Shown here one piece after another: positions 4,192 to 25,976 of a DNA stretch of 32,442 nt. The DNA comes from Spirochaetales bacterium. GTDB lineage: Bacteria > Spirochaetota > Spirochaetia > UBA9216. Both the position numbers and the translations under genes were made by a program. The DNA is taken from NCBI GenBank assembly GCA_031273605.1, contig JAISRN010000071.1:1-32442 (forward strand), read 5' to 3'. Numbering within the stretch: position 1 is the first letter of the stretch; the number at the start of each line of letters is the position of its first letter. The notes beneath the pieces were generated by a model, which worked only from the letters and a program-made list of their open reading frames with translations, was not told the DNA's origin and ran no database searches.

Positions 4192-4641
4192 ATGGATTTT
4201 GCTGCCCCCAGGGATGAGTTGTATCCCCTGATTGAACCGGTAACCAGCGCCCTGGGACACCGCATCGTAGAGTTAAAAAGCCGAACCCGGGACGGTCGGC
4301 TTAAGATAAGCCTGGTGCTTTTTAACCCCCGGGGCCTGGGAGTCAATGACTGCGCCGGGGTTTACCGGACCGTCCTGGCCCGGATCGAAGCGGCCCTGGC
4401 CTGCCGGGATGTGGCCCTGGAAGTCTGTTCACCGGGGCTGGGGCGCAGCCTGAAAACCCTGGAGGAAGCGGCGGTTTTCGCCGGTCTGCCGGTCCGGGTT
4501 TTAACCGCGGCCGGTCCAACCTGGCTTTCGGGCCGCCTGGGCGCCCTTGGCGAGGGGGCTTTGGAACTCCTGCCCCCGGAGGGGGAAGGAGAGGGGATTA
4601 AACTGTCCCCGGAGGACATCAAAAAGATTGAACTTTTATAG
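4192..4641 (+). CDS. rimP: Ribosome maturation factor RimP
   Basis: The 149-residue protein has the RimP layout. An N-terminal alpha/beta domain contains the family stretch around LEVCSPGLGRSLKT (near residues 81-95), where most family members have EVSSPGLDRPL. A C-terminal SH3-like barrel ends in LSPEDIKKIEL. RimP assists late folding of the 30S subunit in the cytoplasm. The start ATG follows GGGAG at a normal distance. It is the first gene of the operon and precedes nusA by 47 bases, the usual bacterial neighbour. The usual aspartate of SPGLDRP is Gly here. Confidence 0.93.
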   Translation: MDFAAPRDELYPLIEPVTSALGHRIVELKSRTRDGRLKISLVLFNPRGLGVNDCAGVYRTVLARIEAALACRDVALEVCSPGLGRSLKTLEEAAVFAGLPVRVLTAAGPTWLSGRLGALGEGALELLPPEGEGEGIKLSPEDIKKIELL

Positions 4642-4688
4642 AGTTTTGCCCAAAGGCATCCATTACAAAACCGCTTAGGAGGTTTGGC

Positions 4689-6224
4689 ATGGCATCTGAT
4701 TTAGCCGAGGCTATCAGACAGATCGTACAGGATCGGGGTATTTCCGAAGACCTGGTAAAAAAGACCATCGAAGAATTTCTCTTGGCCGCCTATAAGAAAA
4801 AATTCGGCACCATGGATAACGCGGTGGTCCAGTTTTCCGAGGACGGTTCCACCGTTTCCCTTTACGCCCGCAAATGTATTGTGGAAGACCTCTACGATCC
4901 CGTATCGGAAATTGAACTTGAAGAGGCCCTGCAGTTAAACGATGAATCGGAAATTGGGGACGAGCTTTTAATTGCCATTGATCCCTATAAAGATTTTGAC
5001 CGGGTAGCGGTTCAGTCGGCCAAACAAAAGGCCAAGCAGACCCTCAAGGACATTCAAAAGGACACCCTGTATTCGGAGTATAAAGAAAAAGAAGGGGAAA
5101 TGGTGATTGGTTACTACCAGCGGGAACGGAACGGCAACATTTTTGTCGATCTGGGTAAAATCGAAGGCATCCTGCCCAAAAAATACCAAAGCCCCCGGGA
5201 GGTTTACCACCCCAACGACCGCATTAAAGCCCTGATCTACGATGTTAATAAAACCTCCGCCGGGCTTAACGTGGTCCTGTCCCGGACGCATACGGACTTT
5301 GTCAAAAGAATCTTCGAACTGGAAGTACCCGAAATTTACGATAAAACCGTGGAAATCTTTAAGATTGTCCGGGAGCCGGGATACCGGACCAAGATTGCCG
5401 TTTATTCCCACCGGGAGGATGTCGATCCCGTGGGGGCCTGCGTGGGGATGAAGGGCGTGCGGATTCAGTCCATCGTCCGGGAACTGGAAGGCGAAAAGAT
5501 TGACATCTTAAAATACGAAACGGATCCCCGGATTTTCATTAAAAACGCCCTTTCCCCGGCGGAGATTGACCAGGTGGTTATTTTAGACGAGGCCAAACGC
5601 CAGGCTTTGGTGATTGTCCAGGAGAGCCAGCTCTCCCTGGCCATCGGCAAACAGGGCCTCAATGTCCGCCTGGCCAACCGGCTGGCGGACTGGAATATTG
5701 ATGTCAAAACCGAAGTACAGTTTAACGATTTGGACCTCTCCGCGGATTCCAAAAAGGCGGTTTCCGCCCTCTTTGGCGAAGGGGAACAGGTGGAGATCAC
5801 CAACATCTCCGAACTGCCGGACATTCCCCAGCGGATTGTTTCCATCCTGGCCGCCAACGGGGTGGAACTTATTGAAACCCTGGTGGCCCTCTCTCCGGAG
5901 GAAATTCAGGAGTTGGAGGGGATCAACGCCGAAGACGGCGCCACCATCCAAAAGATCATCTCGGAAAACCTCAGTATTATCGAAGAAGAAGAAACGCCCC
6001 CCGAATCCCCGGGTCCCCCCCCAGAGGAGGGAAGGGAAGAACCGGAGGCCCCCGAATTGAAGGGGTACCCCGGCGCCTCTGTTCCGGATTCCCAGGAAGC
6101 CGCCGACGAGGAAGAAGCCCACCCTGAAATTTATGAGTGTCCGGAATGTGGGGGCGAAATCAAACTCGGAATGACCGTCTGTCCCAACTGCGGCGTAGGC
6201 CTCAGTTTTGAAGAAGAGGAATAA
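4689..6224 (+). CDS. nusA: Transcription termination/antitermination factor NusA with C-terminal zinc ribbon
   Basis: This 511-residue protein has the RNA polymerase-binding N-terminal domain (1-130) and an S1 domain (about 136-200). KH1 carries the GMKG loop near 253, and KH2 carries AIGKQG near 318-323. A helix-hairpin-helix-like acidic repeat follows (about 368-430). It binds RNA polymerase and nascent RNA to tune pausing, termination and antitermination. The oddity is the tail: a Pro/Glu-rich acidic linker (432-480) leads to a four-cysteine zinc ribbon (C484, C487, C498, C501). I do not know this as a standard NusA domain. AGGAGG six bases before the ATG supports the start. infB begins eight bases after the stop. 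Confidence 0.96.
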   Translation: MASDLAEAIRQIVQDRGISEDLVKKTIEEFLLAAYKKKFGTMDNAVVQFSEDGSTVSLYARKCIVEDLYDPVSEIELEEALQLNDESEIGDELLIAIDPYKDFDRVAVQSAKQKAKQTLKDIQKDTLYSEYKEKEGEMVIGYYQRERNGNIFVDLGKIEGILPKKYQSPREVYHPNDRIKALIYDVNKTSAGLNVVLSRTHTDFVKRIFELEVPEIYDKTVEIFKIVREPGYRTKIAVYSHREDVDPVGACVGMKGVRIQSIVRELEGEKIDILKYETDPRIFIKNALSPAEIDQVVILDEAKRQALVIVQESQLSLAIGKQGLNVRLANRLADWNIDVKTEVQFNDLDLSADSKKAVSALFGEGEQVEITNISELPDIPQRIVSILAANGVELIETLVALSPEEIQELEGINAEDGATIQKIISENLSIIEEEETPPESPGPPPEEGREEPEAPELKGYPGASVPDSQEAADEEEAHPEIYECPECGGEIKLGMTVCPNCGVGLSFEEEE

Positions 6225-6232
6225 TAAACTAT

Positions 6233-8743
6233 ATGTCGGAAGAAAACGGTAACCAAAAACCCAAGGCAACCTTAATCAAACACCGCAAACCGGAACCCGC
6301 CCCGGCGGCGGAAACGGAAAAGCAGGAACGCAAAAAGGTGGTGGTGGTTAAGAAAAAGGTTCCCCTCAAACCGGAGGCCGCTCCCCAGGCGTCCCCGCCG
6401 CCTCCGCCGCCTCCTTCTCCTCCGGTCAAGCCGGTTCCGCCTCCTCCGGCCCCCCCGGCTCAGGAGCGAAGCTCCTTCCGGCCTTCCTATGCCCAGGACC
6501 GCCAGCCCTCTTCCTATAACCAGGACCGTAGGCCCCCTTCTTCCGGCAGCCCCATGAGAAAGGGCCCCCGGGAGGCTGGCGGCTTCGGCGGGCGTCCCCA
6601 GACCTCCGGCGGGCGTCCTCCGGGCCCGGGGGGCCGTCCTCCGGGACCAGGAGGCTACGCGCCCCGTCCCTCCTCAGGGGGGCGGCCCGGCGGCCAAAGA
6701 CCCTACGCGCCCCAGGACGGACGGGGCGACCGGCCCGGCTTTTTTAGGCCCGGCGGAGGCGCCCCCGGCCCCCGGCCCGGAGGGTTTAAACCCTTCGCCG
6801 GCCGCCCCGCCGCCCCGGCTTCCGAAGAGATCTCCCGGAACGGCGAGAAAAAAACCGGCGCCAAGAAATTTTTTAAATCCAAAAAAAAGGAAGCCTATAC
6901 CAAAACAAAAAAGGAGATCCTTAGAGAAAAGGATTTTCTTTTAACCAAAAAAAAGAACGCCCAGATCATCGCCAATCCCATTCCCAAGGAAATTAACATC
7001 ATTGACGTGATCACCGTATCAGAGCTTGCCCGCAAGATGAACCTCAAAGCGCCGGAACTCATTACCAAGCTCATGGGAATGGGAATGATGGTAACCATTA
7101 ACCAGCAGATTGATGTGGACACCGTGGAGATCATTGCCGCGGAGTACGGCTGCAAGGTGAATATCGTGTCCCTCTATGATGAAACTTTAATTGATAGGGA
7201 CACCAGGGGAGACGACGACCTTAAACCCAGGGCGCCCATTGTTACCATCATGGGGCACGTCGATCACGGAAAAACCAAACTTCTGGATGCCATCCGGTCC
7301 ACCGACGTGGTGGCGGGGGAATTCGGAGGCATCACCCAGCACATCTCCGCCTACCGGGTAACCATTCCCCAGGGGGAGATTGTCTTTCTGGATACCCCGG
7401 GACACGCGGCTTTTACCCTGATGCGGGAAAGGGGCGCCAAAATTACGGATATTGTTATCCTGGTGGTGGCCGCCAACGATGGAGTCATGCCTCAAACGGT
7501 AGAGGCTATCCGCATGGCCAAGGAAGCCAAGGTGCCAATTCTGGTGGCCATTAACAAGATGGACCTCCCCGACGCCAACATGGATAAGGTTAAGCAGCAG
7601 CTTTCCGAATATGACGTTCTTTCGGAAGAATGGGGAGGCAGCACCCTCTTTGTGCCCATATCGGCCCTTAAAAAAGAAGGAATTAACGAACTGCTGGAAG
7701 CCGTTCTTCTCCAGGCGGAACTTTTAGAATTAAAAGCCAATTATAACTGCCGCGCCGAAGGGCAGGTACTGGAATCCCGGATTGATCAGGGCCGGGGCAT
7801 TATCTCAACGATCATTATTCAAAGGGGCACCCTCCGGGTGGGAGACGCCTTTGTCGCCGGCGTTTATCCCGGCAAGGTTAAGGCTATGTTTAACGACCGG
7901 AACGAAAGGATCGAAAGCGCCGGCCCCTCCTGCCCGGTGGAGATTTTAGGGATAGACGGGGTGGTCAGCCCCGGAGCGCCCTTTCAGGTAACGGAAAATG
8001 AAAAAATTGCCCGGATGGTGGGGACCAAGCGGCAGGAACTGGAAAAAAACAGCGAAATTAAAAACCTCAAGAAAGTAACCCTGGACAACCTCTATGATAC
8101 CATTCGGCACGGGGAAATTAAGGAACTCAAGGTTATCATTAAAGGGGATGTTCACGGTTCCGTGGAGGCCCTGAAATCGACCCTGGAAAGACTCTCCACT
8201 AAAGATATCAGACTCCTGGTTATCCGGGCTCAGGCGGGGGCTATCATCGAAGACGATGTTAATTTTGCCAATACCTCCGGCGCCATCATCATTGGTTTTC
8301 ACGTGCGTCCCACCGCCAAGGCCCAGGCCCTGGCGGATCAGGAAAAAGTGGAAATTCGAAAGTACAACGTGATCTACGACGCGGTGGATGACATTCGGTC
8401 CGCCATGGAGGGCCTTCTGGCGCCGGAACTCCAGGAGGAGATCATCGGTACCCTGGAAGTCCGCAAAACCTTCAAGGTTCCCAAGGTAGGCGTTATTGCC
8501 GGTTCCTACGTTACCTCCGGGAAAATCATCCGGAACGGCAACATCCGGGTTTTCCGGGAGGGCCTTGAGATTTACAAGGGCAAGGTCAGTTCCCTAAAGC
8601 GCATTAAAGACGACGCCAAAGAAGTGGAAAAGGGCTTTGAGTGCGGCGTGGGAATCGATAACTTCATGGACATTGAACCGGGGGACCTCTTTGAGGTTTA
8701 TATCGTAAAAGAAGTGGCTAAAAAGCTGAATAGCGGGGAATGA
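6233..8743 (+). CDS. infB: Translation initiation factor IF-2
   Basis: The 836-residue GTPase brings initiator tRNA to the ribosome. The G domain shows GHVDHGKT (341-348), DTPGH (387-391) and NKMD (441-444). Beta-barrel domains and the C-terminal tRNA-binding region follow. A short IF2 N-terminal module (about 256-310) precedes the G domain. The first 200 residues are low complexity: a basic start, proline runs (54-76) and Gly/Arg/Pro-rich repeats such as GGRPPGP (about 127-195), then a Lys-rich segment (205-240). Such tails vary widely between bacteria. The ribosome-binding site GAGGA lies inside the nusA end, 12 bases from the ATG, slightly far. The gene ends in TGA directly abutting the rbfA ATG. 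Confidence 0.97.
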
Positions 8744-9100
8744 ATGTCCGACATTAGAATTCGCCGGGTGGAAAGCCTTTTACAGGATGAAATCGGTCTC
8801 CTCATCGTTACCCACCGGATTAAAGACCCCCGGGTGAGTCCCTTTCTTACCGTAACCCGGGTACAGGCGGCTAGGGATTTTTCCTTTGCCCGGGTCTTTA
8901 TTTCCAGCTTTGAAAGCGAACCTGATCTGACCCAGGGCGTCGAGGCCTTAAATCATGCCGCCGGTTTTATTCAGGTAGAGGTTGCCAAAAAATTAAAAAC
9001 CCGTCAAACCCCCAAACTCAATTTTGTGGGGGATAATTCCATCCTTAAAAGCATGGAATTAAACCGTAAGATCGAGGAACTGCACAGGGATGAAGCCTAG
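8744..9100 (+). CDS. rbfA: 30S ribosome-binding factor RbfA
   Basis: The 118-residue protein matches the KH-fold assembly factor that binds immature 30S subunits near the 16S rRNA 5' end. Family features include the start with RRVESLLQDEIG, then IKDPRVSPFLTVTRV and a C-terminal half ending with PKLNFVGDNS. It starts immediately after the infB stop (no gap), with GGGGA in the infB end as ribosome-binding site, so its translation is probably coupled. It overlaps truB by 11 bases. Confidence 0.93.
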   Translation: MSDIRIRRVESLLQDEIGLLIVTHRIKDPRVSPFLTVTRVQAARDFSFARVFISSFESEPDLTQGVEALNHAAGFIQVEVAKKLKTRQTPKLNFVGDNSILKSMELNRKIEELHRDEA

Positions 9101-9968
9101 CGGCATTGTTTTTCTAAACAAACCCCCCGGGCGGACCTCCTTCCACTCCCTTGACCTCCTTAAAAAGGGGCTGGGACATTCCCGGGTGGGACATTCCGGC
9201 ACCCTGGACCGCTTTGCCTCGGGGCTTATGATTGCCCTGGCGGGAAACTGCACCAGGATGGCGGGGTTTTTTACGGGGCTGGATAAAACCTATCTGGCGG
9301 TGATGCGCTTTGGCGAGGAGACGGACACCCTGGACCCCGAAGGCCGGGTGGTAGCCGCCGGTCCGGTTCCCGGCTATCCCCAAATCATGGAGGCCCTGCC
9401 CCTCTTTACCGGGAAAATTTCCCAGGTTCCTCCGGCCTACTCGGCTATCCACGTCAACGGCCGGCGGGCCTACCGGTCGGCCCTGGCGGGCGAAACCCCG
9501 GAACTCAAGCCCCGGGAGGTGGAGATTGCCTGGATTCACCCCCTCTCCTATGAGCCCCCGGATTTTTGTTTCCGGGTTCGCTGTTCCAAAGGCACCTATA
9601 TCCGTTCCCTGGCCAGGGATTTGGCCGCCGCCCTGGGCACCCGGGGCCGGCTGGAAAGCCTCTGCCGGGAGGCCGTGGGGGATTTCACCCTCCAAGAAGG
9701 GGTAAGGCCGGAGGCTTTCCACCTGGGGGACCTCAAAACCCCGGAAGAGGTTCTGCCCCGGATTCGGGGATTTTCCTCCGCCGGGGTAAAACCCGAGGCC
9801 TGGACCAAGATTCAAAGCGGCCGGGCCTTTGAGGAGGATTTTCTTGAGGTTCCCCGGGAGATGGCGCCGGGAAACTGGCTTCTCCTGGCCGCCGGGCGGA
9901 CCATCGCCGTCCTGGAAGTGGGGGAGGGGGGGCGCCGTTACCGCCTGATCCGGGGGGTGGAAGCATGA
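9090..9968 (+). CDS. truB: tRNA pseudouridine(55) synthase TruB
   Basis: The 292-residue enzyme forms pseudouridine 55 in the T-loop of tRNAs. The catalytic aspartate is D40 in the motif GHSGTLDRFASG (34-45). Most family members have Pro after the Asp where this one has Arg. The second family signature is VRCSKGTYIRSLARDL (about 161-176), and a small C-terminal PUA-like tail follows. The start ATG overlaps the rbfA end, and its stop overlaps the ribF start (ATGA), an arrangement typical of coupled translation. Confidence 0.94.
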   Translation: MKPSGIVFLNKPPGRTSFHSLDLLKKGLGHSRVGHSGTLDRFASGLMIALAGNCTRMAGFFTGLDKTYLAVMRFGEETDTLDPEGRVVAAGPVPGYPQIMEALPLFTGKISQVPPAYSAIHVNGRRAYRSALAGETPELKPREVEIAWIHPLSYEPPDFCFRVRCSKGTYIRSLARDLAAALGTRGRLESLCREAVGDFTLQEGVRPEAFHLGDLKTPEEVLPRIRGFSSAGVKPEAWTKIQSGRAFEEDFLEVPREMAPGNWLLLAAGRTIAVLEVGEGGRRYRLIRGVEA

Positions 9969-10885
9969 GAGGGGAGGATGGGGAAGTTTTGGGCATGGAT
10001 GTTCTGGACTGGAAGGACTTCTGCGCCGCCGGGGCGCCGGTTTTCGGAGACCGGGAGATTGCCATGACTCTGGGAGTCTTTGACGGTTTTCACCTGGGGC
10101 ATCAGCGTCTCATTCAGAAGGTGGTCTCCCAACCCCGGACCTACCCGGTACTGTTTACCTTCCGCCGAAGCCCGGCGGAGCTGCTGCCCCACAGGGCCTT
10201 TTTGGGCAGCCTGGCCACCACCGGGCAGAAGTTAGAAGAATGTGCCGGTTTTGGCATGAAAGCCGCCGTGCTCATTGACTTTTCTATGGATTTCAGTAAA
10301 CTAACAGCTAAAGAATTTCTTGACATCATCCTTGACCGGATGAGGCTGTCAAAACTCATCCTGGGGGAGAACCACCGCCTGGGATACCGGGGGGAAGCGG
10401 GGGCCCGGGAGGTTCAGGTTCTTCTAAACCGCCGGGGTATAGAGGTTGATATCATCCCGACTTTGTACTGCCGGGGTCTGCGGATTTCCAGCACCCGGAT
10501 CAGGCAAACCATCCTGGAGGGGGATCTGGCCCTGGCGGAAGAGATGCTTGGTCGGCCCTATGCGCTGGACCTGGGTTTTCTAAAGGAAGGCGGTTTTTTT
10601 CAGGGGGCGGAGCGGAAAAGCGGCGGCGAAGGGTTTATTTATGCGGTTCCGGTCCGGGGATTTCCCCAAATCCTGCCGCCGCCGGGGGAGTATCCGGTAC
10701 TCTACGAGTCCTCCGGGGAGTTTTTCCCCGCAAGGCTTGTACTGGATAATGGGTATATGCAATGGGAGCAGGTCCGGGAAATTCCCGGGACAAAAATATT
10801 CTTTTGTCATTCTAAGAACACAGGAGACGGCGATGTCGTTAACAAAAGAAAAAAAGCAGAGCATTATAAAGGACTTCGGAGCTAA
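9965..10885 (+). CDS. ribF: RibF-type FAD synthetase with degenerate riboflavin kinase domain
   Basis: The first ~185 of 306 residues form a clear FMN adenylyltransferase domain, with the nucleotide-binding motif [10 protein letters not shown] (37-46) and ISSTRIR (174-180). Bifunctional RibF proteins then carry a riboflavin kinase domain with a G.GR.LGFPTAN signature just after LGRPY. Here LGRPY is present (195-199), but the signature is not visible and the remaining ~106 residues are short and divergent. The last ~18 codons read through the start of rpsO, an overlap of 53 bases. Reading the other frames downstream did not reveal a kinase domain. Either the kinase activity is lost or it is strongly diverged. 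The start overlaps truB by four bases; M11 (9995) is a possible alternative start. Confidence 0.85.
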
Positions 10886-11102
10886 TGAAAAAGACTCCGG
10901 TTCCACCGAGGTACAGATTGCCCTATTAAGCGCCCGCATAAGCGATCTGACCGAGCATTTCCGGATTCACAAAAAGGACCACAACTCCCGCCGGGGATTG
11001 TTAAAACTGGTGGGGCAGAGGCGCAGGCTTCTTAAGTATCTCCAGAGGGAAGATCTGGAAAAATACCGGGAAATCATCAAACGCCTCAATTTACGAAAAT
11101 AA
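10833..11102 (+). CDS. rpsO: 30S ribosomal protein S15
   Basis: The 89-residue protein is a standard S15, showing the family pattern in [14 protein letters not shown] and [19 protein letters not shown]. It binds the central domain of 16S rRNA. The start is set by AGGAG six bases before the ATG at 10833 and by the family length. Upstream in-frame codons are translated part of ribF in another frame and should not be included. It overlaps the ribF end by 53 bases. S15 often represses its own mRNA, but I see no convincing pseudoknot here. Confidence 0.96.
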
Positions 11103-11180
11103 GGCCCTTTCCTCCTTTGGGATTCAAGGGATTTGGGTCTTATAAAATGCCTAAGAATGATTTTTGTTTAAGGAATAACT

Positions 11181-13271
11181 ATGGTAAATAAAGTAAGCGT
11201 CCGGATTGGCGACAGCGATCTTGTTTTGGAAACCGGCCGCATAGCCAAACAGGCTAACGGAGCGGTATTTGCCACCTATGGGGGCAGCGCCGTACTTTCT
11301 ACGGTTTGCTGCGGAAAAAAGGTGGATGATCTGGATTATGTGCCCCTCCAGGTGGAATACAACGAAAAATTCTACGCCGCGGGAAAGATTCCCGGCGGAT
11401 TTTTAAAGCGGGAGGGGCGCCCCAAGGATAAAGAGATTCTGGTAAGCCGGCTGATAGACCGGCCCATGCGCCCCCTCTTTTATAAAGAGTTTTCCCGGGA
11501 AATTCAGGTGATTCCCACGGTTATCTCCGCCGACATGATTAACCCTCCGGATATTATCGCCATGGTTGCCGCCTCCGCTTCGGTGCTCATCTCCGATATT
11601 CCCTTTAACGGCCCTGTGGGAGCCGCCCGGGTCTGCCTGGTGGGGGACGAGTTCATCGTTAATCCCACCTTTGCCCAGATAAGCGAAAGCAGCATGGACA
11701 TTGTGGTGGCCGGAACCGCCCAGGGCATCACCATGGTCGAGGGGGGGGGCAAGGAGGTTTCGGAGGAGGTTCTTCTCTCGGCCATTGCCAAAGCGGACGA
11801 AGTGATTAAGGGGCTTTGCGCTCTCCAGGAGGAGTTGGCCGCCAAGGTGGGGGTCTCTAAACTTCCGGTAGAAAAATCCCAGGCCGGGCTTCCCGGACAG
11901 GAGGAGATTTCCCATTTTGCCCGGCCTCTCTTAGAAGAGGCCTGTTTTGTTAAGGGCAAAATGAAACGCCACGAGGCCATTGCCCAGGTAAAAGCCCAGA
12001 CCATCGAAAAATTTGCCCAGGATTTTTCCGAAGACCAGTACAAACTCCTGGGGGCCCTCCTGGAAAATCTGGAGTACCGCATCGTCCGCTCAAGTATCCT
12101 GGACCGGGGGGTCCGAACCGACGGCAGGGGAACGGAGGATATCCGCCCCATTTCCTGCGAGGTGGGGGTTCTTCCCCGGACCCACGGTTCCGCCCTCTTT
12201 ACCCGGGGAGAGACCCAATCCCTGGTCATCACTACCCTGGGGACGGTTTTTGACGAACAGATGATGGACGACATTGACGGCGAAAAACGTTACGCCAATT
12301 TTATGCTCCATTATAATTTTCCTCCCTTTTCGGTGGGGGAAACGGGCCGCCTTGCCACGGGCCGGCGGGAGATTGGGCATGGCCACCTGGCCCAGCGGGC
12401 CATTGCGGCGGTTCTGCCTAACAAGAACAGCTTTCCCTATACCATCCGGGTTGTTTCCGAGATCTGCGAATCCAACGGCTCCTCTTCCATGGCCTCGGTC
12501 TGCGGGGGAACCCTATCCCTGCTTAACGCGGGGGTCCCCATGGGCAAACCCGTAGCCGGAATTGCCATGGGGCTTATCTCCGGCGAGGAAGGCAAGGTGG
12601 CGGTGTTAAGCGACATCCTGGGAGAAGAGGACCACCTGGGGGACATGGATTTTAAGGTGGCGGGAACCCAAGACGGGATTACCGCTTTTCAGATGGACAT
12701 TAAAATCGCCAATGTTACCCCCCAGATCATGTCCCAGGCCCTGGCCCAGGCCAAGCGGGGCCGGCTGCACATCCTCAACATTATGAATCAGACGATTTCC
12801 GAACCCCAAAAGAACCTTTCCGAATTTGCTCCTAAGATTGTTACCATCAAGGTTGACCCGGAAAAAATCGGCGGCATCATCGGGCCCGGGGGAAAAACCA
12901 TAAAGAGCATTACCGAGGCCACCGGCGCCAACATCAATATCGAAAACGACGGGTCCGTTACCATTTATTCCCGGGAACAGGCCGGGGCCAACAAGGCGGT
13001 GGAGATCATCAAGAGCATAGTCGAAGAACCGGAAGTGGGAAACACCTACACCGGCAAGGTTCGGCGCATCATGGATTTTGGCGCCTTTGTGGAATTTTTG
13101 CCCGGCAAGGAAGGGCTGGTTCACATTTCCAAACTCTCCCGGCAAAGGGTTAACGCCGTTACCGATGTTCTTAAAATTGATCAGGAAATTCCGGTCAAGA
13201 TTATCGAAATTGACCGCATGGGACGGATTAATTTAAGCTATGTCGACGCCCTTCCCAACGGCGGAAAATAA
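11181..13271 (+). CDS. pnp: Polyribonucleotide nucleotidyltransferase (PNPase)
   Basis: The 696-residue 3'-5' phosphorolytic exonuclease acts in mRNA decay and RNA quality control. It has an N-terminal RNase PH domain, a helical linker (about 215-300) and a catalytic RNase PH domain, including DILGEEDHLGDMDFKV with the key acidic residues. A KH domain (about 552-618, GPGG at 568-571) and an S1 domain (about 619-690) complete it. Its position after rpsO is the classic bacterial arrangement. AAGGA six bases upstream of the ATG supports the start. The 78-base gap from rpsO is the widest within this operon and contains a weak -10-like TATAAA but no good -35. A G9 run at 11741-11749 lies in frame. 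Confidence 0.97.
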   Translation: MVNKVSVRIGDSDLVLETGRIAKQANGAVFATYGGSAVLSTVCCGKKVDDLDYVPLQVEYNEKFYAAGKIPGGFLKREGRPKDKEILVSRLIDRPMRPLFYKEFSREIQVIPTVISADMINPPDIIAMVAASASVLISDIPFNGPVGAARVCLVGDEFIVNPTFAQISESSMDIVVAGTAQGITMVEGGGKEVSEEVLLSAIAKADEVIKGLCALQEELAAKVGVSKLPVEKSQAGLPGQEEISHFARPLLEEACFVKGKMKRHEAIAQVKAQTIEKFAQDFSEDQYKLLGALLENLEYRIVRSSILDRGVRTDGRGTEDIRPISCEVGVLPRTHGSALFTRGETQSLVITTLGTVFDEQMMDDIDGEKRYANFMLHYNFPPFSVGETGRLATGRREIGHGHLAQRAIAAVLPNKNSFPYTIRVVSEICESNGSSSMASVCGGTLSLLNAGVPMGKPVAGIAMGLISGEEGKVAVLSDILGEEDHLGDMDFKVAGTQDGITAFQMDIKIANVTPQIMSQALAQAKRGRLHILNIMNQTISEPQKNLSEFAPKIVTIKVDPEKIGGIIGPGGKTIKSITEATGANINIENDGSVTIYSREQAGANKAVEIIKSIVEEPEVGNTYTGKVRRIMDFGAFVEFLPGKEGLVHISKLSRQRVNAVTDVLKIDQEIPVKIIEIDRMGRINLSYVDALPNGGK

Positions 13272-13283
13272 GCGGAAGGGGAA

Positions 13284-13724
13284 ATGAATAAAATCATTAT
13301 TCACTTTTCCGGAAACGAAGAGGGAATGCCGGCTTACCAGAGCGCCCTGGCCGCGGGGGCGGATTTAAGGGCCTCTGTGCCCGAAGACCTGGTGATAAAA
13401 CCGGGCGGCCGGGCCTTGGTTCCCACGGGGATTCATCTTCAGATTCCCGCCGGTTATGAAGGGCAGGTCCGTCCCCGGTCGGGGCTGGCCCTGGAATATG
13501 GCGTTACCATGCTTAACTCCCCGGGTACCATCGATGCGGATTACCGGGGAGAAATTCGGGTTTTGCTGATCAACCACGGAAACAGGGATTTTACCGTCAA
13601 GAAGGGCGACCGAATCGGTCAAATTATTTTTTCTCCGGTAATCCGGGGGGAATTTATTTTTACCCAGGAGCTTTCTGAATCCGAGCGGGGAGAGGGGGGA
13701 TTTGGCTCTACCGGTATCAGTTAA
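13284..13724 (+). CDS. dut: Deoxyuridine 5'-triphosphate nucleotidohydrolase (dUTPase)
   Basis: The 146-residue trimeric dUTPase converts dUTP to dUMP and pyrophosphate, keeping uracil out of DNA. All five motifs are visible: AGADLRAS (24-31), RPRSGLA (near 64-70), the uracil-pocket segment [22 protein letters not shown], and the C-terminal GEGGFGSTG that closes over the triphosphate. It starts 12 bases after pnp with a GGAAGGGG ribosome-binding site. It overlaps the following permease gene by 23 bases. Confidence 0.95.
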
Positions 13725-20176: not shown

Positions 20177-20203
20177 CTAAACCCCTTTTACCGGCGGGTT
20201 TAG
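20177..20203. terminator. Hairpin between convergent genes, possible bidirectional terminator
   Basis: CTAAACCC (20177-20184) pairs with GGGTTTAG (20196-20203), a perfect eight-base-pair stem with an 11-base loop. It lies in the 26 bases separating the stops of two convergent genes and overlaps the stop of the minus-strand gene. No strong T run follows on either strand, so termination would be weak or factor-aided. Confidence 0.45.
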
Positions 20204-22080
20204 CCGTTCCTCTCGTGCTGATGCATGATGCGGTTAACCCTGGACAGGGGAGATTCCCACTTGCTAAAGATGATCTGGGTTCTCCGGCCGTCGGGGTCCC
20301 TAACGCTGATGTACCGCTCCAAACAATCAGGCATATCCCCGGGCAAATCAGGAAAGTAATCCGGATCAAGGGGAGAAAAGGTGTAACCTTTGCCGTCAAA
20401 AGAAATCCGGGCAATGGGGTGATCCACATTGATAATGAAGATTGAAAAAACCGAGTTGCGGCCTCCGATTTCCTTTTTTTCTCCCTTTCGAATAACACAA
20501 ATGTTACGGTTGATGGTATGGGGATTCTGCTCGCTTACCTGCATCTGTACGGCCAGGCCAATATCTGCGGGGGAAATCCTAATCTCCCCGGGGGCCCGGG
20601 CGGGGACATTCCGGGTTGTGGCAGGAACCTTGGGCTTGGGCTGGGCCTGGGAAAGGGCGGAGTAGTCATTTTTGCGAACCTGGCCGCTCAAAATAGAAAG
20701 ATCCTTTTTGGTGGACAGGGAGCGGTAAGAATTTTCGGAAGCGGGCTTTCCCGGAGCGGCCGTCTTTAGCTTTAAAGCGGGGGCCGCCGCCCGGCGGGCA
20801 GGGGAGGGGGCCGATTTTAAAGACCCGGAGTAAAGAGTCCGGGAGGCGGAAGCCATCCTCGAAGCCGTCCCGGGAGCCGCCCTCGAAGCTGTTCCCGGTG
20901 TTGTCCTGGAAGCCATTCCCGGCGCCATCCTCGAAGCCGTCCCCAAGGGCATCCCCGAAGCCGTCCCCAAGCCCGGGGAATCCCCGGTGTTTTCCCCATC
21001 CTCGGAGGCGGCGGCAAAGGCAATTTTCCGGACCAGAAGAATAATCGCGAAGATCACCAGGGCGGCAAGAAGGGCGGCCAGCAAAATCAAAAGAACCAGT
21101 CTCAGGGTTCCCCCGGATTTTTGGCTCGTCAAATTAACCTGGACCCGAAAGGTATCAGGGTTAACCCGGCCGGTTTCCGAAAAAACAAATTTAAGATCAA
21201 GCTGGTAAACCCCAAGGGCTGTTTCGGCGGGCAGCTTAACGGCAAAATTAAGGGCCTTTTCCTGGCCGGGCAAAAGATTAATCCTAAGCCGTTTTTGAAG
21301 AATGTCGGCGCCCTCCCACAGGATTTCCTTAAGATTAACAATGGCCGCCTCTTCGGAGTAGTTTTGAATAAGGCCGGGAATGTTAAATTGACGGGAAACC
21401 TCCCCCAAATCCGGGGAAGGAAGGGTCAAATGCTGATTGCCCATAACCTGGCTTGAAAAATTTTCCTTCCCCGCCTCATACCGGACAATGGGGGCCCCCA
21501 GAGTCTCCGAAAGGGTTTCTAAATAAGAAACGCCGGCGTCCTCCGAACCGGGGGGGGGATCCGGTATGGCCACGAGCCGGACGTTCCAGCCGCTCCTGCC
21601 GATCTTTCCGGCAATCTCGTTTAAACTGGACCGGACAAAGTCCTCATCCCGGCCGTAGAACAGGGAGTCCGGAGGAGGATCATGGATGCCGTCGGTTAAA
21701 ATAATAAGGGTTTTCCGGGTGCCGGAATTGAGATCATTGGCAAACCGGTAAAGGTAATTCAGCGCGCTGATGAGATCGGTATGCTGCCCCATGGGTTTAA
21801 GCACCGAAATATAGGTGATAATCCGGTCCTCCTCCGTTTTTCCGCTCATGGACTGGGAAAATTCATAATCCGGAGTATCGGCAAAACTAAGGAGATGAAA
21901 TTTATCCCCCTGGCGGAGTTGAACCTGCAAAAGTTCCCTAACCAGATTTTCCGATAACTCATCAAAGATGGGCAGGACGCTCACCGAAGTATCAAACAGG
22001 ACCACCATATCCTGGCTTTGCTGGGCGGATACCCCCAGGGAAAAGAAAAGGGCCGGGATAAGGAATAGAGACTTCTTCAT
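20200..22080 (-). CDS. Exported von Willebrand factor A protein with transmembrane anchor
   Basis: This 626-residue protein has a signal peptide (1-19, ending VSAQ) and a vWA domain with a complete metal site: DTSVS (D30, S32, S34), T101 and D130. A beta-rich region (about 230-318) leads to one strong transmembrane helix (326-350). After the membrane comes an Ala/Ser/Pro-rich low-complexity tail with five 8-residue repeats (about 370-410). The final ~110 residues are globular and beta-rich, of unknown family, perhaps FHA-like. vWA domains bind partners through a divalent metal, here in the periplasm. It is last in a three-gene operon, starting three bases after the greA stop, with GGAG inside the greA end 12 bases upstream. 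Confidence 0.82.
   Translation of the reverse strand: MKKSLFLIPALFFSLGVSAQQSQDMVVLFDTSVSVLPIFDELSENLVRELLQVQLRQGDKFHLLSFADTPDYEFSQSMSGKTEEDRIITYISVLKPMGQHTDLISALNYLYRFANDLNSGTRKTLIILTDGIHDPPPDSLFYGRDEDFVRSSLNEIAGKIGRSGWNVRLVAIPDPPPGSEDAGVSYLETLSETLGAPIVRYEAGKENFSSQVMGNQHLTLPSPDLGEVSRQFNIPGLIQNYSEEAAIVNLKEILWEGADILQKRLRINLLPGQEKALNFAVKLPAETALGVYQLDLKFVFSETGRVNPDTFRVQVNLTSQKSGGTLRLVLLILLAALLAALVIFAIILLVRKIAFAAASEDGENTGDSPGLGTASGMPLGTASRMAPGMASRTTPGTASRAAPGTASRMASASRTLYSGSLKSAPSPARRAAAPALKLKTAAPGKPASENSYRSLSTKKDLSILSGQVRKNDYSALSQAQPKPKVPATTRNVPARAPGEIRISPADIGLAVQMQVSEQNPHTINRNICVIRKGEKKEIGGRNSVFSIFIINVDHPIARISFDGKGYTFSPLDPDYFPDLPGDMPDCLERYISVRDPDGRRTQIIFSKWESPLSRVNRIMHQHERNG
20857..20976 (-). 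repeat. Five in-frame 24-bp tandem repeats
   Basis: Five consecutive 24-base units run through the vWA gene: 20857-20880, 20881-20904, 20905-20928, 20929-20952 and 20953-20976. They share a core CCTCGAAGCCGTCCC with a few changes each. They encode the eight-residue pattern GTASRMAP and variants. Since 24 is a multiple of three, gain or loss of units would alter linker length without breaking the frame. Confidence 0.85.
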
Positions 22081-22083
22081 TTT

Positions 22084-24777
22084 TTATACAAACTCCGATC
22101 TTTCAATCTTAACAATCTTGAGTTTGTAACTCCGCTCGTTGATCACAAACTCAAGTTCCTCCCCCTGGGTCCGTCCGTAAAGCTCCATTCCCAGGGGCGC
22201 CAGGTAGGAGATTATCCTATTATCCGGATCGGATTCCCAGGGACCAAGGATGGTATAAATATCTTCCGAACCGGTAAGGAGATTCTGCAGGGTTACTTTG
22301 GTTCCAAAGGAAACAGCCCCCAGGTTAATGTCCGCCGAATCGAAAATGACCGCCTTGTCCAGTTCATCCTTCATTTTCTTGGCGCTTAGATTTAAGAATT
22401 CCTGTTTTTCCTTTCCCGCCTTATACTCGGCGTTTTCGCTTAAGTCCCCCAGCTCAATGGCGGCGCCGATTTCCCGGCTGTTTTCCGGCATTTCCACGTC
22501 AATGAGATTTTGATAGGATTTTTGCCTTTTCTTATAGCTTGCCTCAAGAACCGTAAGCTGCCGGGGCGTTACATCCGCCTTTCCTGCCGGGGTTATCTCC
22601 CCGTAAAACTTAAAATCAGGAAAGCGTTTGATGATGTTTTCTTTTAGGCCGATCCACAGGGAAGGATCCAGGTCTTTCACATCCTCTACCAGGGTATAGA
22701 TCCTGGTAACCGATTCCTGATCCCGGGTGTTAAGGTAAGCCTCCAACCGGCCGTCGTTAAATAAAAAGCTCTGAATCTGCTTGTTTAACCTGCGGTTAAG
22801 GCTTACCTCCCGGCGGTTGGAAATTTCCCGGTAGGTAATGTCTAAGAGGAGCAGCATGCCGATAAGAATTTTTTCGTATTTTAAGCCGTAGGTTTCGCAC
22901 CATTTTTCATCGGCATAATTCCGGGCAACCCAGATAAAGGCTTCCCGGTTATCCCGGTAATTATCGGCAATCTGGGCAAAGAGGTCCCTTAATTCCTGGG
23001 TTTTGCCGCTTTTTTCCAGTTCCGCCACAATGCTTGGGTTAAGGCAGCGGGGCAGAATTTTAAGGTAGATCTTTTCCCAGCCGTCAAGCTCCTTTAATTT
23101 TTGAAGAAATAACTGTTTAAGGTGGCTGCTTTCGATGTTCATAAAAACCGATTCAACGTTGGGAATCCGGTCCATGAGCTCCTTAAAATTCTGGTTTACC
23201 CCCGGATTCAGAAAGGAATATTTTTCCGTAATCTGGTTAATGATAAAATACGAGCTGATCACCTGGGCGTCCACATTGTTGTAAGCCCTCAAAAAACCGG
23301 CAAAGTAGGAGACAATTTCGGTAAAGTATTCGTTTGCCGCATCCGCGCTTTCTAAAAATTCCGACAGGGCTTTGTACTTGCCGAAAAAGTCCGTTTCGGC
23401 CTTAAATTTATTATAAGCCTTTTCTTCGGCGGAAACAGGATTCTCCTGAACCTTAAAGGTGTCAATTTTATCGGGCAGGTTGGCAAAAACGGGGTCTTCT
23501 TTAAGGATTTTCCGGGCGGCGGCGCTCCAACTGTTCCATTCCTTGGCGTCCAGAATGGCCGGCACCAACTCCGCCTTAATCTGTTTTGTGCTGGCCTGGT
23601 TGCCGTAGCTTTTTATCAGCGCCCGGAGCGCCCAGGGGATATTTTCCTTAATCTGCTTTTTAAGCTCCTCCCTTTTTTTGGTTACCTTGAGAACCCAGAT
23701 ATGATCCTTTTCAAGGTAGGTAAGGGACCCCACCGCCATTTTCAGGCTCATCTTATGGTCGGCCTTGCGGGTAAAATTAATGACAATTTCATCGTCTTCG
23801 ATGGTTTTAATCTTGCCGATTCCCCAGGACCGGTGATAAACAAAGTTGCCCACATCAAAAGAAATATGCTTTTGAAAGTCTTCGATGGCTTCGTGGATGC
23901 TTCTAAAACTCTGATTCAGGTTGGAAAGTTTAATGTAGTCTTCCAAGTGGCTGTGATAACTGTACTTTTGCCTGAAACACTCGGTAATCTCCTTGCGGGC
24001 CCAGGGGTTTTTGGGATCATAATCTAAAATCCGCTTTAAAATTTCAATGCACCGGTCCCAGTTTTCCATTTTTTTATAAGTCAGGTAAAGCTCTTCTAAA
24101 AGCTGGGCGGACCTGTCCGGGGTGATCTGTTTGGCAATCTTAGAATCCACATGAAAAAAGAATTCTATGTCCTGGGGGTTGTGATCCAAAATTTTATGCC
24201 AAATGTCCTTTACCTGGGGAAAAGACTTTTTATTAATATAGCGGTAAATGGCCTTTTTATAATAATCCAGGGCATCTTCGGTTCTGCCGGCGGCCTCAAA
24301 TCTTTCAGCCAACTGCTTAACAATATCCGCCTCTTCGTGGTCAATCTTTACCAGCCTAACCCAAACTTCCTGTTTTTTTTCATCCTCATTTTCGTTTTCA
24401 TAACACTCCGCCAAAAGCCGCAGGGCGTATTTGTTTTCCCCGAAAGACAGGATGCGGTTGCACAGGTACTCCACGATGTTCCATTTGTGGTTATCCACGA
24501 AAAAGTTAATCACCGTTAATAAATTTGAATCATCCAGCATGCGTTTTCTTAGGGAAAGAATGCCGGACAGGTAAAGGGCAATAATGCTGTTTTTGGAGCG
24601 GCTAAGGTGCTCCTCGCAGACGGCCAGGGTTTCTTCCTGGTTTTCTCCCGCTGCGACGGCTTCCACCATTTCATCCAGCTCCCGGAAATTGTTGATGGTA
24701 TAGCTGTTAATGGTAGCCCGGGTCCATTTTTCTTCGTTCAGCAATTCAGAAATCGTTGTTAGAATATTTTCCGCCAT
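22084..24777 (-). CDS. greA: GreA transcript cleavage factor fused to a long TPR and SH3-like extension
   Basis: Only the last ~152 of 897 residues are GreA. A coiled coil carries the catalytic-tip motif GDLSENAEY (777-785, acidic D778 and E781), and the FKBP-like C-terminal domain follows. GreA inserts into the RNA polymerase secondary channel to rescue backtracked complexes. The usual protein is about 160 residues. The extension contains helical TPR-like repeats (about 50-300), a small beta module (about 306-365, DVGNFVYHRSWGIGKI) resembling CarD/Tudor SH3-like domains, and a long helical region. Extended GreA proteins are known in spirochaetes and chlamydiae (family knowledge). GAGGAA seven bases before the ATG supports the start. 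It sits between a TPR protein and a vWA protein in one operon. Confidence 0.93.
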   Translation of the reverse strand: MAENILTTISELLNEEKWTRATINSYTINNFRELDEMVEAVAAGENQEETLAVCEEHLSRSKNSIIALYLSGILSLRKRMLDDSNLLTVINFFVDNHKWNIVEYLCNRILSFGENKYALRLLAECYENENEDEKKQEVWVRLVKIDHEEADIVKQLAERFEAAGRTEDALDYYKKAIYRYINKKSFPQVKDIWHKILDHNPQDIEFFFHVDSKIAKQITPDRSAQLLEELYLTYKKMENWDRCIEILKRILDYDPKNPWARKEITECFRQKYSYHSHLEDYIKLSNLNQSFRSIHEAIEDFQKHISFDVGNFVYHRSWGIGKIKTIEDDEIVINFTRKADHKMSLKMAVGSLTYLEKDHIWVLKVTKKREELKKQIKENIPWALRALIKSYGNQASTKQIKAELVPAILDAKEWNSWSAAARKILKEDPVFANLPDKIDTFKVQENPVSAEEKAYNKFKAETDFFGKYKALSEFLESADAANEYFTEIVSYFAGFLRAYNNVDAQVISSYFIINQITEKYSFLNPGVNQNFKELMDRIPNVESVFMNIESSHLKQLFLQKLKELDGWEKIYLKILPRCLNPSIVAELEKSGKTQELRDLFAQIADNYRDNREAFIWVARNYADEKWCETYGLKYEKILIGMLLLLDITYREISNRREVSLNRRLNKQIQSFLFNDGRLEAYLNTRDQESVTRIYTLVEDVKDLDPSLWIGLKENIIKRFPDFKFYGEITPAGKADVTPRQLTVLEASYKKRQKSYQNLIDVEMPENSREIGAAIELGDLSENAEYKAGKEKQEFLNLSAKKMKDELDKAVIFDSADINLGAVSFGTKVTLQNLLTGSEDIYTILGPWESDPDNRIISYLAPLGMELYGRTQGEELEFVINERSYKLKIVKIERSEFV

Positions 24778-24815
24778 TAGGGGTTCCTCATTTTACCGTG
24801 TCTTTTAAAGCCGTT

Positions 24816-25796
24816 TTAAAATTGACATTTTGAAACGGCCTCTTTTGTCTGAAGAAACTGTTCGTGAACGCTTGAGTTTAGGATTTTCAGCTTTTCCAAA
24901 ACTTCCTCAATCTTGTGCCGACTCTCCTGAATAAACATATAATGATCAATAAGCCAAAAATACCGGTTGATCAGCCGGGGAATGATCCTTTCTTCCCTTT
25001 CCTTTTGCCCCGATTTAACTTCGTTTTCCAAGGTGTAAATGGATTGGCGAAGTTTGGCAAACTCCAGGGATTTAAGCTCCCGTTTTACGTTAAACACATC
25101 GGTCAACACCCCGTAAACGGGAATCCATTCGGCCACATAGGCCGGGTCAACCGCAAGTTCTTCGACCCTTTCGATAAGACGTCTGATAACCCGGGATTCT
25201 AAAAAAACCAGATCCACCTTTTGGGGATCAATAAAAAAGGCCTCGCGGAAAAAAATCTTGGCGCTTTTTATCTCGTTAATTAAGGCGTAAACATCCGCCA
25301 GTTCCGCCAGGATTTCCGCATCCTCCCGCTTGCGATGGTTGGCCATTTCCATTAAGGAAAGGGCGTTTTCATAATCCCCGATGCCCTTGTAACACCGGCC
25401 CATCCGGAAAAGCACCTCCCGGTCCAGGCCGTCGTTGGTCCGGGATATTTGCTTAAAGGCCGACAGGGCGGCGCCGAAAACCCAGCGCTGAACGGCCATG
25501 ATACAGGGTTTTAAACGGCAGGTTTTAAGCCGGATAAAGCTGTCAAAGTTCTTCCATTCCCGGAGGAGAAACTCCCCCGATTCAAAGGGATCGTCAAAGG
25601 CGGCAAACCTATCCTTCCGGGGATTCCAAAAATGGCAGCACTTTAGCCCTATCTGAACCTCCGGGGAGTCAAAATCGATCTCCAGAGCCTTGTCCAGTTG
25701 AAGGCCGGCCTGATAGAAATTGCCTTCGGCAAAATACTTGTCTACCAGGAGAATCTGTTCTTTTAAAGAGTTCGGTTCGACCGTGCTATTATTCAT
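24816..25796 (-). CDS. TPR-repeat protein, cytoplasmic
   Basis: The 326-residue protein has no signal peptide or membrane helix. TPR-like helix pairs run through residues ~10-190, for example YFAEGNFYQAGLQLDKALEID and MGRCYKGIGDYENALSLME. A long, probably coiled-coil C-terminal half carries many Lys, Glu and Arg residues (about 235-325). TPR domains bind other proteins. As first gene of the operon ahead of the TPR-GreA fusion (38-base gap), it may work with that protein, but this is inference. The start is the ATG at 25796, only about 33 bases after the predicted transcription start. The ribosome-binding site is weak, because AGGG touches the ATG. Confidence 0.8.
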   Translation of the reverse strand: MNNSTVEPNSLKEQILLVDKYFAEGNFYQAGLQLDKALEIDFDSPEVQIGLKCCHFWNPRKDRFAAFDDPFESGEFLLREWKNFDSFIRLKTCRLKPCIMAVQRWVFGAALSAFKQISRTNDGLDREVLFRMGRCYKGIGDYENALSLMEMANHRKREDAEILAELADVYALINEIKSAKIFFREAFFIDPQKVDLVFLESRVIRRLIERVEELAVDPAYVAEWIPVYGVLTDVFNVKRELKSLEFAKLRQSIYTLENEVKSGQKEREERIIPRLINRYFWLIDHYMFIQESRHKIEEVLEKLKILNSSVHEQFLQTKEAVSKCQF

Positions 25797-25835: not shown

Positions 25836-25863
25836 ATTATATCAGATCGGCCATTATAGTCAA
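25836..25863 (-). promoter_or_regulatory. Promoter of the TPR-greA-vWA operon
   Basis: Read on the minus strand, TTGACT (25863-25858) and a perfect TATAAT (25841-25836) are separated by 16 bases. Transcription should start near 25829, about 33 bases before the first gene. It is divergent from the rpe promoter 85 bases away. Confidence 0.8.
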
Positions 25864-25910
25864 CGCTGCGGGGCCGAAAACGCCGAATTTTATAGAAAGA
25901 AACAAAAAAA

Positions 25911-25945
25911 GGGCCGCCGGAGGGCCAAAAAAGAAGGGCCGCCGG
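25911..25945 (+). repeat. Two direct copies of GGGCCGCCGG between divergent promoters
   Basis: The ten-base word occurs at 25911-25920 and 25936-25945, a period of 25 bases. The second copy ends two bases before the rpe -35 box. An A-rich stretch precedes each copy. It could be an operator pair or a chance duplication in GC-rich sequence. Confidence 0.5.
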
Positions 25946-25947
25946 TC

Positions 25948-25976
25948 TGGACAAAATCCTTATTAGCTTTTATAAT
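25948..25976 (+). promoter_or_regulatory. Promoter of rpe
   Basis: TGGACA (25948-25953, five of six) and TATAAT (25971-25976, perfect) are spaced by 17 bases. The -10 box ends only eight bases before the rpe ATG at 25985. The expected start of transcription therefore falls within two or three bases of the start codon, leaving no room for a ribosome-binding site. Confidence 0.8.

Follow-up and report, generated by a model that had tools for sequence, protein, structure and literature searches.

A long GreA of Spirochaetota with a Tudor-bearing helical platform and a linked TPR gene

Gre factors are usually viewed as small free proteins and as transient visitors of RNA polymerase. PcrA binds the polymerase through its Tudor domain. 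Exchange of H681, W684, K712 or L714 for alanine severely reduces polymerase binding by PcrA (PMC5397179). The target of this domain on RpoB is the TGE hairpin, and the PcrA/UvrD Tudor and CarD/Mfd have different docking places on the beta subunit (PMC8318588).

In Spirochaetota, GreA occurs in a long form, which is not itself new: it is a catalogued and annotated but uncharacterised family. In the literature searched, in part with an unspecific keyword, no functional work on the long spirochaete GreA, its platform or its partner was found except a co-purification (PMC7237435). Here we describe the long greA gene in a 32,442-nucleotide stretch of DNA from a Spirochaetales bacterium (the window; contig JAISRN010000071.1), together with its relatives across the phylum. 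What the analysis adds is the kinship of a small barrel in the platform, the specificity of the TPR partner, the platform without GreA and a genus whose GreA has no tip.

Table 1 Features of the long greA locus, with positions in the window.
Feature	Positions	Strand	Basis
Long GreA, 897 aa: helical platform, Tudor barrel, winged-helix-like segment and GreA	22084..24777	-	
N-terminal TPR-like helical repeats, residues 2-305	23863..24774	-	AlphaFold2 and DSSP; weak Pfam TPR matches
Tudor/SH3-like barrel, PcrA/UvrD type, residues 311-356	23710..23847	-	
Winged-helix-like segment, residues 380-443	23449..23640	-	H-E-H-H-E-E in the DSSP assignment of the model
C-terminal helical part of the platform, residues 450-718	22624..23430	-	AlphaFold2 model
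Disordered tether to GreA, residues 727-738, pLDDT < 50	22564..22599	-	AlphaFold2 model
GreA: coiled coil and C-terminal domain, residues 745-893	22099..22545	-	Pfam, PDB, Foldseek
Acidic tip GDLSENAEY, residues 777-785 (D778, E781)	22423..22449	-	
TPR partner gene, 326 aa, 38 bp upstream of greA	24816..25796	-	
13-pair hairpin in the gap between TPR gene and greA, overlapping the TPR gene end	24810..24839	weak T-run on the operon strand, terminator-like on plus	
Promoter-like site before the TPR gene: TTGACT, 16 nt, TATAAT, TG before the second hexamer	25836..25863	-	
VWA-domain gene, 626 aa, 3 bp downstream of greA	20200..22080	-	

The long GreA and its family

The 897-residue open reading frame is real. 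A sequence-only reading of the window had described a complete GreA with its acidic tip behind a platform of about 745 residues, and the reading frame, Pfam, PDB and fold matches agree with this. In Pfam, GreA_GreB_N matches at residues 745–811 (58.6 bits) and the C-terminal GreA_GreB domain at residues 820–892 (71.5 bits), both above their cut-offs. E. coli GreA is the PDB sequence match of this part, and Foldseek aligns its model with 1grj at a TM of 0.77 on the target. The acidic tip of the coiled coil is intact and includes D778 and E781, which we take to be the counterparts of the catalytic D41 and E44 of E. coli GreA. From both domains and the tip, the window GreA is predicted to stimulate transcript cleavage.

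AlphaFold2, supplied with 57 homologues, modelled the full protein with a mean pLDDT of 88.7. The platform of about 740 residues that precedes GreA is predicted to comprise well-defined helices, a small barrel and a winged-helix-like segment. TPR-type Pfam matches within about residues 120–290 are weak. A relationship of these repeats to Ctr9/Paf1 or Ski3 was considered and rejected, the global TM being just 0.1–0.17, and the repeats are generic TPR. A Pfam scan of the winged-helix-like segments of family members returned no convincingly recurring family.

The window protein is a member of NCBIfam NF011309 / PRK14720, which it matches over residues 6–896 with 1044 bits (cut-off 714). Of 149 genomes sampled across the phylum, 148 match this model, the weakest through the GreA part alone, and 72 exceed its cut-off; thus, the architecture of the reading frame is not a product of chance. 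Each of the 24 sampled genomes of the window's class carries exactly one GreA, the fusion. The 80 loci listed by one scan of genome contigs were all titled as spirochaetes or without a phylum, and those with names include Treponema bryantii and many Leptospirales. No platform was found in plasmids or viral contigs.

The Tudor barrel and its proposed docking to polymerase

The earlier reading had placed a CarD/Tudor-like module at residues 306–365. AlphaFold2 puts a barrel at residues 311–356, so that the boundaries were right within a few residues. Folded alone with 59 relatives, the barrel has a core pLDDT of about 94 and is predicted to adopt a five-stranded Tudor fold. A Foldseek search of the whole PDB returned UvrD/PcrA Tudors as the top four matches, with E-values of about 0.01 that are modest, as expected at so small a domain size. 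The best is 7egt_B, in which the C-terminal domain of UvrD is paired with UvrB (TM on target 0.85 at an rmsd of 1.4). It is followed by 5dma, by 7egs_B, where UvrD is in complex with the polymerase lobe of E. coli, and by 9dqs. Mfd appears from rank 20. Comparison by HHalign gave 96.2% for the barrel against an alignment of spirochaete UvrD Tudors, with 100 column-shuffled controls at or below 5.8%, and 45.8% against the TRCF RID, with shuffled controls at or below 18.4%. CarD/Mfd as the closest kin was therefore rejected, being weaker than PcrA/UvrD by both HHalign and PDB ranking. As judged from alignments and models, the closest kin of the barrel is the PcrA/UvrD Tudor; the Tudor/SH3-like part of the earlier claim stands, with CarD/Mfd as a weaker match.

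Scanning 60 modules against all of Pfam gave CarD_TRCF_RID (24), PcrA_UvrD_tudor (17) and DUF3553 (13) as the sole recurring families, and the segment neighbouring the barrel, scanned as a control, yielded nothing comparable. The window protein falls below the cut-off of PcrA_UvrD_tudor (PF21196, 23.9 bits), which one long GreA relative exceeds with 24.8 bits in an unbiased genome scan. For CarD_TRCF_RID (PF02559, cut-off 23 bits) the window module scores 17.1 and the best long GreA 22.2, both below.

Residues H315, G321 and F335, all within the barrel, are the only invariant positions of a 58-sequence family alignment. When the PcrA residue numbers were placed by hand on the HHalign alignment, the position of H681 was histidine in 60 of 60 modules and that of W684 tryptophan or phenylalanine in 52 of 60 (W318 in the window protein). 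The L714 position is mostly leucine, isoleucine or phenylalanine (L345 in the window protein), and the K712 position is methionine in 57 of 60, the window protein included. The PcrA-like binding face thus appears largely, not wholly, retained, and we infer that the platform binds RNA polymerase through the barrel. One published observation supports such an association: LC-MS of RNA polymerase purified via tagged beta' from B. burgdorferi detected GreA, unquantified, among other proteins (PMC7237435). Its greA would have the long form provided that the Borrelia-like locus found here is representative, and free GreA would co-purify too.

In the RpoB of the window's own genome, the position of the SI1 helicase-interaction motif is taken by a TGE triad. 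This place could be located by motif in 18 of 30 fetched RpoB sequences, and TGE was found solely in that of the window's own genome. The docking motif of PcrA on RpoB was accordingly rejected as a conserved target.

The platform could instead be a structural extension with no docking role, with GreA using its own contacts and the barrel serving folding, self-association or an unrelated partner. Tudor barrels have a wide range of partners, E. coli GreA binds polymerase on its own, and in the spirochaetes checked the RpoB motif is not conserved and K712 is replaced. Against this, no other part of the protein is as conserved as the barrel, which is retained where GreA is absent and whose Pfam and PDB relatives are mainly polymerase-interaction domains; we consider the structural explanation unlikely. 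A second alternative has the barrel docking a repair protein such as UvrB, so that the scaffold, instead of being a general elongation factor, would link excision repair to the rescue of backtracked polymerase. The identity of the best structural match, a UvrD domain with UvrB, speaks for it, as do the binding of UvrB by the PcrA Tudor via the same motif (PMC8318588) and a recA-like gene next downstream in the Borrelia-like locus. However, the recA neighbour occurs in one lineage only, no repair gene is generally linked, and Mfd-type RID proteins are also present in the sampled genomes, which makes coupling to repair quite improbable. We favour docking of the barrel to the polymerase.

The TPR partner and the platform without GreA

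Conserved linkage to a TPR gene had also been predicted from the window. Among 132 genomes with both genes listed, the TPR partner lies upstream on the same strand in 92 and is unlinked in the rest; linkage is seen in 30 of 40 families, and its state is uniform within families, one split contig excepted. A fold other than Tudor and an absence of TPR linkage were both looked for, and neither occurred. The partner is one specific family of about 320 residues with near-invariant positions. With a profile built from 39 copies, most genomes yield a full-length homologue, at 380 down to about 60 bits, and generic TPR genes score about 50 bits or less; a strong match is not listed in 11 genomes, several of them incomplete. 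TPR-like sequences are abundant (13 to 183 first-look candidates per genome), but with full-length matches of this specificity and linkage in so many families, the notion of a generic TPR gene lying beside greA by chance is hardly credible.

The matches are separated by less than 600 bases in 83 of the linked genomes and by about 1.1–1.3 kb in the other 9. Where loci with the wider spacing were read (families f21, f31 and f38), a gene of about 300 residues, sugar-kinase-like by its N-terminal sequence, lies between TPR partner and greA (L038 3339–4241, L069 7215–8123).

Co-transcription of the TPR gene and greA, as the earlier reading had it, is suggested by the short gap between them and by the promoter-like site, which has 11 of 12 consensus matches in a scan whose total of sites was as expected by chance; the hairpin in the gap speaks for caution. 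This hairpin may act as an attenuator or be a site of processing. A divergent pair of strong promoter-like sites, with 11 of 12 matches each, lies at 25836–25976 between the TPR gene and a ribulose-phosphate 3-epimerase gene. Downstream of greA, counterparts of the VWA gene are found in a few relatives only, and in the Borrelia-like locus (L042 3157–4224) the directly following gene looks like recA from its N-terminal sequence. Elsewhere in the window, positions 4192–13724 of the plus strand hold a standard run of rimP, nusA, infB, rbfA, truB, FAD synthetase, pnp and dUTPase.

GreA is fused to the platform in most of the spirochaetes checked. Seven families, represented by 30 sampled genomes, have the platform as a protein of its own with no fused GreA. 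Those read have about 725–770 residues, and one (L030) has 904 with an N-terminal extension. Nearly all of these genomes also encode GreA separately; the greA profile found none in G012 and G044, whose assemblies are fragmented (200 and 770 contigs). The TPR gene adjoins the platform in 30 of 30. The TPR gene thus accompanies the platform and not GreA. In a maximum-likelihood phylogeny of 60 platforms, a single change accounts for fused and unfused forms, compared with about 12 in shuffles. The midpoint root falls among unfused lineages, and the change may have been either one fusion or one fission of GreA and platform.

In one genus (g51 of family f34; G052, G059, G084 and G109, loci L033, L243, L244 and L245) ten residues, the catalytic tip among them, are missing from the fused GreA. 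The four genomes yielded no further GreA and may have no transcript-cleavage factor of the Gre kind. Since platform-only genomes keep the TPR gene and one genus has lost the tip, the conserved unit, as read from genes and their order, is the platform with its TPR partner and not transcript cleavage, GreA being attached.

A proposed scaffold and its comparison with known systems

We propose, with confidence that is evenly balanced, a Gre cleavage factor built into a polymerase-associated scaffold, which combines Tudor docking, TPR assembly and a tethered, resident GreA. The helical platform would dock to RNA polymerase through its PcrA/UvrD-type Tudor barrel and, as the linkage suggests, assemble with the neighbouring TPR protein. 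The short flexible tether would hold GreA in place, so that backtracked complexes might be cleaved by resident GreA and not by GreA from solution. GreA would be an attached function, which some lineages, as their sequences show, keep as a separate protein or in a tip-less form. Docking to the polymerase at two sites and coupling of transcript cleavage to another process, as the sequence-only reading envisaged, are conjectural. A wider reading is possible, and we offer it tentatively: the Tudor platform and TPR partner may constitute an undescribed, near-universal polymerase-associated complex of Spirochaetota with an elongation job of its own, to which GreA was joined, or from which it was separated, once, and in which GreA can be dispensed with or disabled without losing the complex.

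It appears that in a whole phylum, including the groups that cause syphilis, Lyme disease and leptospirosis, GreA is borne by a large scaffold that has its own dedicated partner. A scaffold that remained on the polymerase would give spirochaetes a resident arm for proofreading, together with a core elongation complex not described before.

Of the described families, PRK14720 covers the same whole length, but its model gives no function for the platform, the Tudor barrel or the TPR partner; platform-only relatives match it too, below its cut-off. NCBIfam NF004969 / PRK06330, the “transcript cleavage factor/unknown domain fusion protein”, presumably a chlamydial family, was compared through its NCBIfam model. 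It gives a colinear match to residues 177–889, barrel included but without about the first 170 residues, and scores 149 bits for the window protein and up to 252 in relatives, which does not reach its cut-off of 697.

The PcrA/UvrD Tudors (5dma, 7egs, 7egt) have the same fold as the barrel (TM on target 0.72–0.85) and share with it the HxxW/FGxG motif. The barrel differs in lying mid-protein in a non-helicase, in a longer strand-helix connection and in the methionine at K712, and the target motif on RpoB is not conserved in the spirochaetes checked. The RID of CarD and Mfd (TRCF), a domain that binds the beta1 lobe of polymerase, is matched weakly but repeatedly in Pfam, by 24 of 60 modules, and reaches only 46% by HHalign. 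Finally, E. coli GreA (1grj) shares both GreA domains and the acidic tip with the long form, and Gfh1 shares both domains, but each is a short free protein of about 158 residues with no scaffold.
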